Shown here piece after piece: positions 22,751 to 35,373 of a stretch of DNA of 39,756 nt. The position numbers and the translations under genes were made by a program. The notes under the pieces were generated by a model. It was not told where the DNA came from, did no database searches, and saw only the letters and a list, made by a program, of their open reading frames with translations. This DNA comes from Methylothermaceae bacterium (lineage in GTDB: Bacteria; Pseudomonadota; Gammaproteobacteria; Methylococcales; Methylothermaceae). Every line of letters begins with the position of its first letter. The first letter of the stretch is position 1. The stretch is taken from contig JALSSF010000172.1 of the NCBI GenBank assembly GCA_026984375.1, positions 1-39,756 of the forward strand, given 5' to 3'.

Positions 22751-23046
22751 GCCCTTCTCCCTTCGAGATTCTCGGGGTGCCGGCGGATGCCGACGACGAG
22801 CGGATTCGCGCCGCCTATCTGCGCAAGGTGCGTGAGCATCCTCCCGAGCGGGATCCGGAGGCGTTCCGCCGCATTCGCCAGGCCTACGAAGCTATCCGGG
22901 ACGTCCGGGCGCGGATCGCCTATCGCCTGTTCCACGTTCCCGATTGGCGGACGATCGCCGTCTCGGTTTCCGAACGACCCACCCGGTCGCAGTTTCAGGC
23001 CATGCTGCGGGCCTGCGCCGAACGGATGACCGAAGCGGATGGATAA
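22747..23046 (+). CDS. J-domain-like protein with HPP in place of HPD
   Basis: A 99-residue protein. Residues 4-62 read as a J domain: SPFEILGVPADADDERIRAAY (helices I and II), the loop REHPPERDP, then EAFRRIRQAYEAIRD (helix III and the QAYE signature). The HPD tripeptide required to stimulate canonical Hsp70 ATPase is His-Pro-Pro at 31-33. There is no zinc or peptide-binding domain, only a short C-terminal helix. The start at 22747 overlaps the previous stop (ATGA), and its end overlaps the GrpE-like gene by 8 bases. The domain assignment is firm; whether it activates the neighbouring Hsp70 is not known. Confidence 0.85.
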   Translation: MSPSPFEILGVPADADDERIRAAYLRKVREHPPERDPEAFRRIRQAYEAIRDVRARIAYRLFHVPDWRTIAVSVSERPTRSQFQAMLRACAERMTEADG

Positions 23047-23656
23047 CGAGACCCTGTTACGAGCGTTTCAGCGCCTGCTGGCGGAAGCACCGGAACCCCC
23101 GGAGGAAGAGATCGGCCTGGCCCGGCTCTTTACCGAGCTGGCCGCCCTGAGGACCGAGGTGCATACCGAAGGGCGGCAGGCGAAGGACGCCCTGGAGCTG
23201 TTGCGCCAGAGTTTGGAAACCCTGGAGCGGCAGTGCGACCACCTCGACCAGGCGGTTGAATTGCAACGGCGCCAGATCCTGGAGCCGATCCTCCTGGAGC
23301 TGGTGGACCTGCGGGACCGGCTGGCGATGGGGATCGATGGTCTATCCCGCTGGCGTCCCAACTGGTTCCGGCGTCTGCTGCTCGGCCGGGAGCTCGATCG
23401 CCTGAAGGCCGTCGTCGAGGGACAGCGGTTGACCCTGGAGCGTTTCGACCAATGGCTCCTCGGTCTCGGGCTGCGACCCATCGACGCCCTCGGCAATCCC
23501 TTCGAGCCGGAGCGGATGCGGGCGGCGGAGATCGTGCACCGGGCCGACCTGGACGACGAAACCGTGGTGGCGGAGCTGCGCCGTGGCTACCTGTGGCAGG
23601 GGCGGGTGCTGCGACCGGCGGAAGTCGCCGTCAACCGTGTCGACGAGCCGAAGTGA
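23039..23656 (+). CDS. GrpE-like nucleotide exchange factor
   Basis: A 205-residue protein with the GrpE layout. A long coiled coil covers about residues 30-95 (LRTEVHTEGRQAKDALELLR), a middle helix bundle follows, and a C-terminal beta domain at 148-200 has LGNPFEPERMRAAEIVHRAD and TVVAELRRGYLWQGRVLRPAEV. These last two match the GrpE signature closely. The central insertion around WRPNWFRRLLLGRELDRLK is not typical of housekeeping GrpE. It should release ADP from the adjacent Hsp70. The 4-base gap to that Hsp70 and the overlap with the J gene make a dedicated pair likely; housekeeping dnaK-grpE must be elsewhere. Confidence 0.86.
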   Translation: MDNETLLRAFQRLLAEAPEPPEEEIGLARLFTELAALRTEVHTEGRQAKDALELLRQSLETLERQCDHLDQAVELQRRQILEPILLELVDLRDRLAMGIDGLSRWRPNWFRRLLLGRELDRLKAVVEGQRLTLERFDQWLLGLGLRPIDALGNPFEPERMRAAEIVHRADLDDETVVAELRRGYLWQGRVLRPAEVAVNRVDEPK

Positions 23657-23660
23657 AGCG

Positions 23661-25376
23661 ATGAAGGAACCGATCATCGGTATCGATCTCGGTACTACCT
23701 ATTCGGAGGTGGCGCTGCTGGAAGCCGGGCGCCCCAAGGTGCTGGCCGACGCCGAGGGCAGACGTTTGCTGCCTTCGGTGGTCGGCCTCGACGGCCAGGG
23801 CCGGCTTCTGGTCGGCGAGGCGGCCCTGAACCAATATCTGCTGTTTCCCGAACGCACCGTCAGATCGGTGAAGCGCAAGATGGGAACGGCGGAGATCCTG
23901 AAGCTGGGCGAACAGTCCTATTCCCCCCAGGAGATTTCCGCCATGATCCTGCGGGTACTCAGACAGCGGGCCGAAGCCTATCTCGGGCGCCCGGTGACGC
24001 GGGCGGTCATCACCGTGCCGGCTTTCTTCAGCGAGGCCCAGCGCCAGGCCACCCGGGAGGCGGGGGAGATCGCCGGTCTGGAGGTGGTGCGTCTGCTCAA
24101 CGAACCGACCGCGGCCTCCCTGGTGTACGAGAGCGATCTCGAGCGCAGCCGCACTGTGCTGGTCTACGATCTGGGCGGCGGCACCTTCGACGTCTCCCTG
24201 GTGCGGATTCAGCAGGGGGTGGTGGAGGTGATCGCCAGTCACGGCGACAATCATCTGGGCGGCGACGACTTCGACCGGGTGTTGGTCGAACTGTTCGCCG
24301 AGCACATCGAGGAACGAAGCGGCCGTGACGTGCGCGGGGATGCGGCCGTGGTCGCCCGTCTGCTCCGTGCCGCCGTGGCCGCCAAGCACGCCCTTTCCCA
24401 GCGGCCTTTCGTCCAGATCCGGGAAGAGTTTCTGTTCGGGAGCGGGGACGCACCGTTCCATTTCACCCTGGAAGTGTCCCGACAGGAATACGAGGCCCTG
24501 ATCGCTCCCTACATCGACCGCACTTTCGACGCCGTCCATACGGCCCTGCGGGATGCCGGGCTCGGTATCGCCGATATCGACGACGTGCTGTTGGTCGGCG
24601 GATCGACGCGGACTCCCCTCGTCGTCGAGCGTTTGGAAGCGCTCTTCGCCCGGCCTCCCAAGGCCGCCGTCGATCCGGATCTGTGCGTGGCCATGGGGGC
24701 GGCGATTCAGGCCGGCATGCTGGCGGGGGAACCGGTGGCCTCGGTCCTGGTGGACGTGACTCCCTACACCTTCGGCACCGCCATCGTCGGGGAGCTCGAC
24801 GGCCGCCCGCATCCCAAGGTTTTCGTGCCCGTCATCCGCAGAAACACGCCCCTGCCGGCTTCCCGGAGCGAGGTGTTCTACACCCTGGAAGACGGGCAGG
24901 AAACGGTGGAAGTGTGCGTCTATCAGGGCGAGGATCCCGACGCCGGCAACAATCTTCTCGTCGGTTCGTTCACCGTGGAAGGACTGCGCCGGGCGCCGGC
25001 TCCCGATCCCATCGTGCTGCGGTTCGATCTGGATCTCGACGGAATGCTCCGGGTGACCGCCACCGAAAAGGCCACCGGCCTGGAAAAACAGGTGCGCATC
25101 GACAAGGCGGTCGAGCCGATGGATCGGCAGGCGCTGGCGCGGTCCCACGGCAAGGTGGCCGCCCTGTTCGATGAGAAGGACGAGCCGGCGCCGCGGGTGC
25201 GCCGGCTGCTGAACCGGGCGGAAGCCGCGCTTGCCCGGGTGAACCTGGCGGAGGATCGAGCGGAGATGACGCGGTTGATCGAATCCCTGCGGGCGGCGAT
25301 GGCCCGGGGAAACGAGGGGGAGATCGAACGGGCCGCGGAAGCCCTGGAAGAATTGCTGTATTATCTGGAGCGCTGA
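23661..25376 (+). CDS. Short Hsp70 chaperone, HscC-like
   Basis: A 571-residue Hsp70. The nucleotide-binding domain is complete: phosphate 1 IGIDLGTTYSE (6-16), catalytic-type lysine in SVKRKMG (K71), RLLNEPTAASLVYE (144-157), phosphate 2 VYDLGGGTFDVSL (168-180) and adenosine loop LLVGGSTRTPLV (310-321). The linker SVLVDVTPYTFG (361-372) differs from the VLLLD of DnaK and resembles HscC-type proteins. The substrate beta domain spans about 375-480, with VIRRNTPLPASRSEVF. The lid is short, and there is no EEVD-like or glycine-rich tail. It is about 65 residues shorter than DnaK and close in length to E. coli HscC. The start at 23661 follows the GrpE-like stop by 4 bases. Confidence 0.92.
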   Translation: MKEPIIGIDLGTTYSEVALLEAGRPKVLADAEGRRLLPSVVGLDGQGRLLVGEAALNQYLLFPERTVRSVKRKMGTAEILKLGEQSYSPQEISAMILRVLRQRAEAYLGRPVTRAVITVPAFFSEAQRQATREAGEIAGLEVVRLLNEPTAASLVYESDLERSRTVLVYDLGGGTFDVSLVRIQQGVVEVIASHGDNHLGGDDFDRVLVELFAEHIEERSGRDVRGDAAVVARLLRAAVAAKHALSQRPFVQIREEFLFGSGDAPFHFTLEVSRQEYEALIAPYIDRTFDAVHTALRDAGLGIADIDDVLLVGGSTRTPLVVERLEALFARPPKAAVDPDLCVAMGAAIQAGMLAGEPVASVLVDVTPYTFGTAIVGELDGRPHPKVFVPVIRRNTPLPASRSEVFYTLEDGQETVEVCVYQGEDPDAGNNLLVGSFTVEGLRRAPAPDPIVLRFDLDLDGMLRVTATEKATGLEKQVRIDKAVEPMDRQALARSHGKVAALFDEKDEPAPRVRRLLNRAEAALARVNLAEDRAEMTRLIESLRAAMARGNEGEIERAAEALEELLYYLER

Positions 25377-32378: not shown

Positions 32379-33458
32379 TCAGGGTAACAGAGCCAGCAGA
32401 TGGTGCAGCCTGGCCTCCAGCGCCGTCGCGCTCGACGCCCGCACGGTGGCATGGCCCACCTTGCGTCCCGGGCGTTCCACCTTGCCGTAGAAGTGGCAGT
32501 GGACCCCGGGTTGCTCCAGCACGTCCGCCAGGGTGGGGAGAACGCCGATGAAATTCACCATGGCGGCATGTCCTACCGGTTCCGTGTCCCCCAGGGGCAG
32601 ATCCAGGATGGCGCGCAGATGGTTTTCGAACTGACTGATTTCGCTCCCCTCGATGGTCCAGTGACCGGAATTGTGCACCCTCGGCGCCATTTCGTTGGCG
32701 AGCAGGCGGCCGTGGACCTCGAACAGTTCCAGGGCAAGGACACCCACATAGTCCAAATGTTCCAGCAGACGGCAGGCGTAGTCTTCCGCCCTGGCCGTCT
32801 GGGAGTCCCGGGGGCGGCAGCGGGCCACGTGGAGGATGCCGTCCCGGTGAACGTTCTCGCTCAAAGGATAGAAGGCCATGTCGCCGTTGCGGCGGCGCAC
32901 CGCGATGATGGACACCTCACGCTGGAAGGGAATGAAGCTTTCCCCGATCAGGGGATTGCCGCCGAGTTCCCGCCAGGCCCGTTCCATGTCGGCGGCGGTT
33001 CGCACCAGGAACTGGCCCTTGCCGTCGTAGCCGAAGCGGCGGGTTTTGACCAGGAACGGCCAGCCGAGGGTTTTGGGCGCCTCCCGCAGATCGCTTTCGC
33101 TGTCGATGGCGATGAATTTGGCGGTGGGGATGTCGAGACGGCGGAACAGGTTTTTTTCCCGGAGCCGGTCCCGGCTTTCCGCCAGGGCCTGCAGCGGGGG
33201 ATGGATGCGGGTGCGCTGCTGCAGTCTTTCCAGCCCTTCCAGGGAAACGTTCTCGAATTCGTAGGTGATGACGTCGCAGTCCTCGGCCATCCGTGCCAGG
33301 GCGTCACGGTCGTCGTAGGGAGCGCAGATGTGATCGGCCAGGGAAGCGGCGCAGGCGTCCCGGGCCGGATCCAGCACGGTGAAGTCGAGTCCCAGGGGAT
33401 AGCCCGCCAGGATCAGCATGCGCGCCAATTGCCCCCCACCGATGATGCCAACCCTCAT
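32379..33458 (-). CDS. purK: N5-carboxyaminoimidazole ribonucleotide synthase
   Basis: ATP- and bicarbonate-dependent carboxylation of AIR in purine synthesis. The 359-residue ATP-grasp enzyme starts [23 protein letters not shown] (first half given by position 1-20). It carries [15 protein letters not shown], the [19 protein letters not shown] site, VELF-type strand VLALELFEV and the [17 protein letters not shown] metal and substrate motif. The start at 33458 overlaps the purE stop by 4 bases. The frame is open further upstream only inside purE. It precedes the Wzz-like gene by 17 bases, an unusual partner for purK. Confidence 0.96.
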
Positions 33459-33961
33459 GGCTGCTCCCCCCGGGGATCGGGATGGGCCAGGACCGCTTCG
33501 GTCTGGCGCTGGCGAAAGGTTTCCAGGGCGGTGCCGATTTCCGGAAATTTTCCCGCCAGAATGGCCGCTGCCAGCAAGGCTGCGTTGGTGGCCCCGGCCC
33601 GGCCGATGGCGAGGGTGGCGACGGGAATGCCGGCGGGCATCTGCACGATGGACAACAGGGAGTCCAGGCCGTTGAGGGCCCTGGATGGCACCGGGACTCC
33701 CAGCACCGGCAACGTGGTCTTGGCGGCCACCATGCCGGGAAGATGGGCGGCTCCGCCGGCGCCGGCGATGATGACCTGAAGCCCACGTTGTATGGCCTTG
33801 CCGGCGTAATCGAAAAGCAGATCCGGCGTGCGGTGAGCCGAGACTACCCGAACTTCGAAGGGAATCGCCAGTTGCTCCAGCATGTCGGCGGCATGATGCA
33901 TGGTTTCCCAGTCGGACTGGGATCCCATGATCACCCCCACCAGGGGTTTGCTTTGCATCAT
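33455..33961 (-). CDS. purE: N5-carboxyaminoimidazole ribonucleotide mutase
   Basis: Converts N5-CAIR to CAIR, the partner step of PurK. About 168 residues: [25 protein letters not shown] and [23 protein letters not shown] hold the substrate and catalytic histidine sites (the last stretch spans more than the core AGGAAHLPG). Tandem ATGs occur at 33961 and 33958, and a TTG at 33994 also keeps the frame. The TTG is disfavoured because a TGTCATAAT extended -10 at 34008-34000 would place the RNA start about there. No strong ribosome-binding site precedes any of the three. It is the first gene of the purEK-wzz-ABC-PHP run. Confidence 0.93.
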
Positions 33962-34174
33962 GTTTGGTTTTCGGCTGTCGTTGGCTTGTTCCAATTGTTA
34001 TTATGACAAATCCCGTGTGCGAATGCGTGCTTGCACGGCTCAACACCTATCATCCCCCCGCCAATGGACGTGATGGGTGGTAAGCTTGCACGGACGGTCG
34101 CTTGATAATTTCGGCCATCGTCCTTACATAAGGGAACGTTTAAAAAACACTGCCGACAAAGGGAGATTCGACCG
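33962..34174. promoter_or_regulatory. Divergent regulatory region between purE and the histone-fold gene, with direct repeats
   Basis: This 213-base gap has no gene. It contains two copies of GCTTGCACGG on the plus strand, at 34029-34038 and 34084-34093, spaced 55 bases start to start. Toward purE there is TGTCATAAT (34008-34000, minus). Toward the histone-fold gene, TTGATA (34102-34107) is followed 17 bases on by the weak TACATA (34125-34130). AAGGGAG near 34158-34165 is that gene's ribosome-binding site. The repeats could bind a regulator, but nothing identifies it. Confidence 0.45.
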
Positions 34175-34624
34175 ATGACCATCATGGGCATAAACCAGTT
34201 CGAACGTTTTTTCCGTCAAGCCGCCTCTCTGGACGTGGACAAATCGGATCTGAAGCGGGTGTCCGATTTTCTCAATCAGAAGCTGTACGATCTGCTGATC
34301 GTCGGAGTGGCCAAGGCCAAGGCCAACGGCCGGGATGTCATCCAGGTCCACGATCTGCCGATCACCAAGGGTCTGCAGGAGAGCATCCACCGGTTCCGCG
34401 GTCTGGAAATCGCCCTGGAACTGGAACCGATCCTGGCTCAGCTGGCGACCCTGCCGCCGCTGGATCTGGCCTACAGCGACGAAGTGGAGGCCAAGCTTCC
34501 CGAGATCGTCGGTGGCCTGACCTATGCGTTGGCCCAAAGTTTCAAGATCATCGATCCGAGCGTCAAAAACCCGGTCACCGAACACTGGGATCGGGCGATT
34601 GCGCTCTTCGACCTGTTACTGTAG
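34175..34624 (+). CDS. DUF1931 family pseudo-dimeric histone-fold protein
   Basis: A 149-residue protein of the DUF1931 family, whose solved Aquifex and Thermus members contain two histone folds in one chain. The first fold covers about residues 6-75 (FERFFRQAASLDVDKSDLKR, KLYDLLIVGVAKAKANGRDV, LPITKGLQESIHRF). The second covers about 84-148 (ELEPILAQLATLPPLDLAYS, LPEIVGGLTYALAQSFKIID). A positive DNA-binding surface cannot be judged, and overall the protein is not strongly basic. It is monocistronic, with its own ribosome-binding site and a strong terminator. A second in-frame ATG at residue 4 is an alternative start. The cellular role of the family is not established. Confidence 0.92.
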   Translation: MTIMGINQFERFFRQAASLDVDKSDLKRVSDFLNQKLYDLLIVGVAKAKANGRDVIQVHDLPITKGLQESIHRFRGLEIALELEPILAQLATLPPLDLAYSDEVEAKLPEIVGGLTYALAQSFKIIDPSVKNPVTEHWDRAIALFDLLL

Positions 34625-34645
34625 CCGACGGCCGAACCGTATTCC

Positions 34646-34677
34646 GGCGAAAAGCCCGCATCCGCGGGCTTTTCGCC
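34646..34677 (+). terminator. Rho-independent terminator of the DUF1931 gene
   Basis: A perfect 14-base inverted repeat, GGCGAAAAGCCCGC and GCGGGCTTTTCGCC, with loop ATCC begins 22 bases after the stop. The core GC hairpin is followed by TTTTC, and AAAA precedes it on the other side, so it could also act on the minus strand. Confidence 0.9.
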
Positions 34678-34715
34678 ATATCCCGGACGATTCCTACCGC
34701 GACCGGCGTTTAAGG

Positions 34716-34721: not shown

Positions 34722-34749
34722 TCCAAAGTTATCGACTCGGGGCTTGACC

Positions 34750-35373
34750 GTGCTGGAGATCATCGAGGCCGGAGGCTGGCTCATGTGGCCCATTCTGGCC
34801 TGTTCCGTGTTGGCGACCGCCATCGTCTGCGAGCGTTTCTGGAGTCTGCGGACCAGTCGTATCATTCCCCCTCATTTGGTCACCCAGGCATGGCGCCTGT
34901 ATCGCCAGGGAGAGCTCGACGCCGCCCGGCTGCGCCAATTGCAAAGCAGTTCGCCGCTGGGTGCCATTCTGGCGGCGGGCCTGGCCAATCATCAGTACGG
35001 GCGTGAAGTCATGAAGGAAGCCATCGAGGACGTCGGCCGTCAGGTGGCTCACGAACTGGAGCGCTTCCTGGATCTTTTGGGCACCATCGCCTCGGTCAGT
35101 CCGTTGCTGGGACTACTGGGAACCGTGATGGGAATGATCAAGGTGTTCAGCGCCATCACCGCCGCCGGTGTCGGTGATCCCCAGGTGCTGGCGGGAGGCA
35201 TCTCCGAGGCGCTGATCACCACGGCGGCGGGGTTGTCGGTGGCGATTCCGGCCCTGATCTTTCACCGTCATTTCCAGGCCAAGGTGGTCGACCTGGTGCT
35301 GCGGATGGAAAACGAATCGTTGCGCTTCATCGAGATCATGCATAGTCAGTCGGAGCGGGAGAGCGAGACGTGA
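34750..35373 (+). CDS. exbB: ExbB/TolQ/MotA-family proton channel protein
   Basis: A 207-residue inner-membrane protein with three transmembrane helices: near residues 9-29 (GGWLMWPILACSVLATAI), 110-135 and 155-175. Family sequence SPLLGLLGTVMGMIKVF is followed by the helix ISEALITTAAGLSVAIPAL, whose conserved Thr faces the proton path. With ExbD it would energise a TonB-type or related transport step. The GTG at 34750 has GGGG 7 bases before it; a TTG at 34744 is too close to that site. The stop overlaps exbD by GTGA. Location before kdsB matches a gammaproteobacterial lipid A/LPS cluster. Confidence 0.92.
   Translation: MLEIIEAGGWLMWPILACSVLATAIVCERFWSLRTSRIIPPHLVTQAWRLYRQGELDAARLRQLQSSSPLGAILAAGLANHQYGREVMKEAIEDVGRQVAHELERFLDLLGTIASVSPLLGLLGTVMGMIKVFSAITAAGVGDPQVLAGGISEALITTAAGLSVAIPALIFHRHFQAKVVDLVLRMENESLRFIEIMHSQSERESET

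Follow-up and report, generated by a model that had tools for sequence, protein, structure and literature searches.

An acidic DUF1931 double-histone-fold protein of a Methylothermaceae bacterium and its candidate place in the heat-shock response

The DUF1931 gene and its product

The window, which is the whole 39,756-nucleotide stretch of Methylothermaceae DNA analyzed here, contains a DUF1931 gene between purE and a gene for an ExbB/TolQ-like proton channel. Read as a single gene, it is a forward-strand open reading frame with an ATG start, encoding a protein of 149 amino acids that begins MTIMGINQFERFFRQAASLDVDKSDLKRVSDFL. The features of the locus are as follows.

33455 to 33994, reverse strand: purE, the divergent upstream neighbor (TIGR01162, E 1.2e-64; syntenic in 10/10 genomes of the genus)
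34101 to 34129, forward strand: sigma32-like promoter, CTTGATA-N14-CCTTACAT, a degenerate copy matching 10/14 consensus positions
34160 to 34165, forward strand: ribosome-binding site AGGGAG, recognized from the sequence, 9 nt 5' of the ATG
34175 to 34624, forward strand: gene for the DUF1931 double-histone-fold protein (PF09123, match to 1WWI, AlphaFold2, Foldseek)
34646 to 34677, forward strand: hairpin with a 14-bp stem and 4-nt loop (fold -35.3 kcal/mol, z -4.67 for 34622-34690)
34744 to 35373, forward strand: ExbB/TolQ-like proton channel gene, a separate downstream unit (PF01618, E 1.1e-34; synteny)

The first-pass annotation had described a monocistronic gene with a good ribosome-binding site and a strong terminator. 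The first two of these descriptions hold, since purE is divergent, AGGGAG precedes the ATG by 9 nt and the ExbB/TolQ-like gene starts 120 bp 3' of the DUF1931 gene, past the hairpin, so that DUF1931 forms its own transcription unit. The third holds in part. The hairpin is G+C-rich, with AAAA...TTTT flanking a GCCCGC/GCGGGC core, and is a probable terminator, possibly a bidirectional one; however, a strict terminator scan of the gene region gave no match, this hairpin included, because its only T run consists of four residues inside the stem and five are needed. Scans of the same region for sigma70 promoters and against Rfam were likewise without a match. The source genome (2.49 Mb, 240 contigs) carries a single DUF1931 copy.

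Assignment to DUF1931 was confirmed by a match to PF09123 over the whole length of the protein (E 3.5e-58, 196.2 bits against a cut-off of 21.8, profile positions 1-138 of 138); none of the NCBIfam models names it. Among solved structures the nearest is that of Thermus thermophilus TTHA1479 (1WWI; E 1.2e-48, 58% identity), followed by that of Aquifex aeolicus AQ_328 (1R4V). An AlphaFold2 model built from an alignment of 25 relatives (pLDDT 94.2) shows a single chain holding two complete histone folds, as had been proposed at first pass, with helices at residues 6-17, 23-50 and 65-75 in fold 1 and at 83-90, 102-126 and 135-148 in fold 2. A Foldseek search with this model ranked 1WWI (TM 0.95) and 1R4V (TM 0.81) ahead of H2A-H2B dimers and viral doublets. 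Invariant or near-invariant residues include R14, D22, K23, D25, R28, N51, R53, D60, P62, T64, K131, N132, P133 and W138. The window protein is thus real and an ordinary further member of a known family. It resembles TTHA1479 (1WWI, 1WWS) and aq_328 in family, length and fold, and likewise in conserving the DVDKxDLKR and NGRDxIxxxDLPI segments and in having lost histone DNA-binding residues; it differs from them in its host, a methanotrophic gammaproteobacterium, in its purE-exbB locus and in its candidate sigma32-like promoter.

Distribution of the gene and its candidate promoter

Among sampled genomes DUF1931 is carried by 8/10 in the genus, 10/301 in the order and 11/369 in the class Gammaproteobacteria, a count that includes the genome of the window and bears out the earlier remark that presence in gammaproteobacteria is patchy. 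Further afield, carriers above the cut-off numbered 2/399 in the phylum, with 8/397 in the Thermoactinospora phylum and 7/396 in the Rhodothermus phylum. Carriers in the genus include Methylomarinovum tepidoasis IN45 and M. caldicuralii IT-9, both moderately thermophilic marine methanotrophs with an optimum of 45-50 C (PMC10950024). The order purK-purE, DUF1931, exbB-exbD-kdsB is conserved within the genus. The two genomes lacking DUF1931, G002 and G004, come out together (support 0.957) in a phylogeny built from the genes on either side; purE and exbB are 227 bp apart in G002, and other genes lie between them in G004. A single loss would account for this pattern, as would a single gain were the root placed on that branch. 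In G004 about 4.2 kb of DNA occupies the site (contig C121 24130-28378; L066 10130-14378) and carries putative periplasmic glucan synthesis genes that resemble OpgG/OpgH by eye.

The eight DUF1931 copies of the genus are monophyletic (91/88), and their nearest neighbors are other gammaproteobacterial copies. A viral or phage origin was rejected, as no relative was present in 50,697 phage records or in IMG/VR. In another gammaproteobacterial genome, G142, a truncated DUF1931 gene is immediately followed by a transposase-like gene (L055 9498-11200), and this copy was probably broken by an insertion element.

Upstream regions were scored against the sigma32 consensus CTTGAAA-N12-16-CCCCATNT over 14 positions. 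The sole element common to the eight upstream regions of the genus is CTTGa...CCccA(c/g)AT; all eight orthologues score 10-12 of 14, every match lying between -71 and -93, and their summed score of 89 compares with 69.7 +/- 2.4 in shuffles. The match in the window itself is weak, its score of 10/14 being attained by 14% of shuffles, and the claim for this copy therefore rests on its orthologues. With the same scorer, eight E. coli heat-shock genes gave 12-14 and 44 other E. coli genes 7-11, whilst the six other genes of the purE-DUF1931-exbB locus had mean scores across the genus of 7.8-9.0. The best DUF1931 promoter in other Gammaproteobacteria scores 13 (CTTGAAA-N13-CCCCAATT, in a Thiohalobacter MAG), with scores of 12 in G595, G557, G652 and G598 and just 8-9 in four further gammaproteobacterial copies; these promoters are phylogenetically non-independent. 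Copies outside the Gammaproteobacteria, where a sigma32-type promoter is not expected, all score 7-9.

E. coli was used for calibration because groES in the genus carries CIRCE and is thus unusable as a sigma32 reference. The CIRCE element (TTAGCACTC-N9-GAGTGCTAA) was observed in groES upstream regions of the genus and several relatives (L158-L180), so that heat-shock genes are probably split there between HrcA and a sigma32-like promoter. CIRCE control of the DUF1931 gene itself was rejected, no such element being seen upstream of it. Judged from the upstream sequences and the gene company described below, stress regulation of the DUF1931 gene would appear quite likely.

Gene company in other lineages

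Plasmid loci gave the first lead to a chaperone context, and chromosomal copies were then drawn regardless of context. On Rhodococcus and Nocardia plasmids DUF1931 is the last gene, starting 13 bp past the preceding one, of an operon in the order general stress protein, dnaK, grpE, dnaJ, cbpM, clpB, trx(A), UBP-type zinc finger, FAD oxidoreductase, DUF1931. This plasmid operon is the actinobacterial counterpart of heat-resistance islands. It was observed in near-identical form on linear and circular plasmids (L089, L090, L097). On conjugative plasmids of Trichormus and Nostoc, DUF1931 adjoins groES-groEL, Hsp20, thioredoxin and dnaK genes; in Azospirillum it follows grpE, dnaK, clpB and Hsp20; in Aquicella it accompanies three Hsp20 genes, with one DUF1931 fragment adjoining a Tn3 transposase; and in Streptomyces a dnaK-grpE-dnaJ cluster lies 7 kb away. 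A ClpB gene is found 62-80 bp upstream in two Actinomycetota chromosomes, and five Rhodothermus-phylum loci have a divergent Hsp20 gene roughly 0.7 kb away. The locus tags of T. thermophilus fit this picture, with TTHA1479 for DUF1931, 1487 for ClpB, 1488 for DafA, 1489 for DnaJ and TTHA1491 for DnaK. Several other gammaproteobacterial copies have an HdeD-like DUF308 gene at 30-113 bp and YfdX close by.

Across 29 loci from outside the genus of the window, genes for DnaK, GrpE, DnaJ, ClpB, GroE or Hsp20 were present within about 10 kb of DUF1931 at 13/29 as against 2/43 controls (P 5.6e-5), and adding tLST-type genes (HdeD, YfdX) raised this to 19/29 against 3/43 control regions (Fisher P 1.4e-7), P values that overstate the strength of the association since the loci are not phylogenetically independent. 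With the genome of each query left out, as in the count of 19, in which one positive locus has its match 16 kb off, there was no chaperone or stress neighbor at 10/29. The association recurs in Actinomycetota, Cyanobacteriota, Alphaproteobacteria, Gammaproteobacteria and the Rhodothermus phylum, and it takes in heat-shock islands borne on plasmids of several phyla. In literature excluding most subscription journals, no paper was found that ties bacterial DUF1931 to chaperone operons. The grouping recalls tLST, in that relatives of the window protein share mobile islands with tLST-type genes, namely Hsp20, Trx, YfdX, HdeD and ClpB/DnaK (PMC8290217); it differs in that the window locus is not an island and the main text of the tLST review (PMC8290217) does not include DUF1931.

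Unlike the loci of relatives elsewhere, purK-purE-DUF1931-exbB-exbD-kdsB has no mobile hsp20-clp cluster, and no chaperone neighbor was found within 8 kb of DUF1931 in the window. At 23039-25376 on the forward strand the window holds a second GrpE-like gene (PF01025) alongside a divergent gene of DnaK type (PF00012), at about 42-46% against the plasmid DnaK; a weak DnaJ-like match lies nearby. The pair stands apart from any standard dnaK operon seen here and is shared with a near-identical genome, G006; in other genomes of the genus it does not occur within 10 kb of DUF1931. This cluster was rejected as a functional neighbor, being 9 kb away, and tblastn gave a match to DnaK within 10 kb of DUF1931 in just 1/7 other carriers.

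Stress islands also bear regulator and envelope genes, and association with chaperone genes is therefore not biochemistry. The DUF1931 protein might instead be a stress-induced scaffold or regulator, in transcription, ribosome hibernation or the envelope, that is carried along with stress islands and has no direct role in proteostasis. The neighbors in some lineages would suit such a part, among them the HdeD-like DUF308 and YfdX genes, a KefB-like gene and an S30AE-sigma70 fusion, and histone folds of TAF and SOS proteins are known to mediate protein-protein contacts (PMC13088155). The closest and most recurrent partners are, however, ClpB, DnaK and Hsp20, and we consider this alternative unlikely, if still credible. 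The fusion just mentioned, of S30AE (PF02482) with sigma-70 region 4 (PF08281), was seen 47 bp from DUF1931 in G364 (L062 4708-5823), and homologous sigma-like genes occur in the DUF1931 regions of Azospirillum (L094 17421-18092) and G1094 (L126 15000-15623).

DNA-contact residues and proposed function

The window protein has a pI of 5.15 and a net charge of -5, with medians of 5.14 and -5 for 37 homologues and a pI of 9.6 for HMfB (sequence checked against 1A7W). The equivalents of the DNA-facing loops sum to -6, by a count of charges per loop rather than a surface calculation, the family median being -6 and the range -10 to -3. At the place of the RKT...D motif of loop L2 the protein reads R53-D54-V55...D60 and the motif is absent. 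Among the 37 homologues the equivalents of HMfB R52, K53, T54 and D59 are R in 36/37, D in 35/37, V/I/L/M in 37/37 and D in 36/37. The structural Arg-Asp pair formed by the R52 and D59 equivalents is thus retained, whereas Asp takes the place of the DNA-contacting Lys and Thr occurs in 0/37. A profile comparison against HMfB alone was not significant, though its register agrees with the RKT/D alignment. Both hallmarks of DNA-wrapping histones of the HMf/HTk type, the RKT...D motif and a basic, positive contact surface, are therefore missing. Compared with HMfB and the bacterial dimer histones (HBb), the window protein shares the histone fold and keeps the R52/D59-type pair in fold 1, and differs in having two folds per chain, in being acidic, in the change of RKT to RD(V/I) and in lacking a basic DNA track.

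The first-pass annotation had entertained either DNA packaging or a non-DNA role, and took an absence of DNA binding together with an acidic dimer surface as an argument for a different function. The acidity of the protein and the negative charge of its contact loops agree with such a surface, as far as can be judged from sequence. DNA packaging by the window protein would on this evidence not be supported, being disfavored because the protein is acidic, the contact loops are net negative and the DNA-contacting Lys has given way to Asp. The non-DNA role is favored and can be specified, from the gene context in other phyla and the sigma32-like promoter, as one in heat shock and proteostasis.

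A bacterial histone in the narrow sense, a component of the nucleoid with DNA-binding, bending or bridging activity that may come into play solely under heat stress to shield the chromosome, is improbable on the same grounds. The double histone fold is present, the DUF1931 gene of T. thermophilus is highly expressed (PMC10627809), and a chromatin role in archaea was kept possible by the authors of PMC8775648; against this, three papers report that histone DNA-binding residues are missing from DUF1931 (PMC12701072, PMC11390915, PMC13088155). The gene context, moreover, is one of chaperones and not of replication or nucleoid genes.

Plasmid carriers occur in Rhodococcus, Nocardia, Streptomyces, Nostoc and Azospirillum, which are largely mesophilic genera, and one isolate came from Antarctic sea ice; the carriers G142 and G198 have a 16S G+C of 53-54%, similar to that of the non-carrier G016, and with carrier 16S G+C so mixed, and plasmid carriers in such genera, thermophily is rejected as the sole explanation. 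A thermophile-specific protein- or DNA-stability factor that merely tracks growth temperature is thus very improbable, even though the family is known from Thermus, Aquifex and the two Methylomarinovum species and its archaeal carriers are (hyper)thermophiles (PMC8775648).

Our preferred reading, held with moderate confidence, is that the gene encodes a heat-inducible, acidic, non-DNA-binding double-histone-fold protein that acts in proteostasis and is served in this lineage by an RpoH-type promoter. Heat or protein-damage stress would lead to transcription from the RpoH (sigma32)-type promoter, and the product would fold alone as a histone pseudodimer without a DNA track. The conserved surfaces of the pseudodimer would then bind protein partners instead of DNA, and from gene company alone we infer that the protein most likely serves as an accessory or holding factor beside ClpB-DnaK-small-Hsp, holding or reclaiming damaged proteins. 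The promoter and the gene company of relatives on chromosomes and plasmids together suggest that the task of the protein is not DNA packaging but the protection of cells against heat or protein damage.

Published data on relatives bear on the same point. The bacteria-type doublets of Pyrococcus furiosus and Thermococcus kodakarensis (TK0750 in the latter) are archaeal DUF1931 proteins controlled by Phr, with levels raised on Phr deletion (PMC8775648), and heat shock raises RNA and protein levels of Phr targets (PMC10746257). These Thermococcales doublets belong to the same family and have published heat-shock control; they differ in being archaeal, in answering to the Phr repressor and not a sigma32-type promoter, and in sharing the cell with canonical histones. 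The Thermus DUF1931 gene has also served in Tn-seq as an example of a gene of unknown function with a low insertion rate (PMC13140390).

More tentatively, DUF1931 may form a heat-shock class that spans domains, whose acidic pseudodimers could have been recruited to ClpB-DnaK-small-Hsp disaggregation and have crossed phyla on plasmid heat-shock islands. Papers of 2024-2026 have only noted that DUF1931 'histones' are without DNA-binding residues, leaving their function open. Bacterial chaperone operons, stress islands and sigma32-like promoters, taken with archaeal Phr control, give a coherent and testable functional assignment. If it is true, tallies of 'bacterial histones' in which DUF1931 is counted ought to set this family apart from chromatin proteins.
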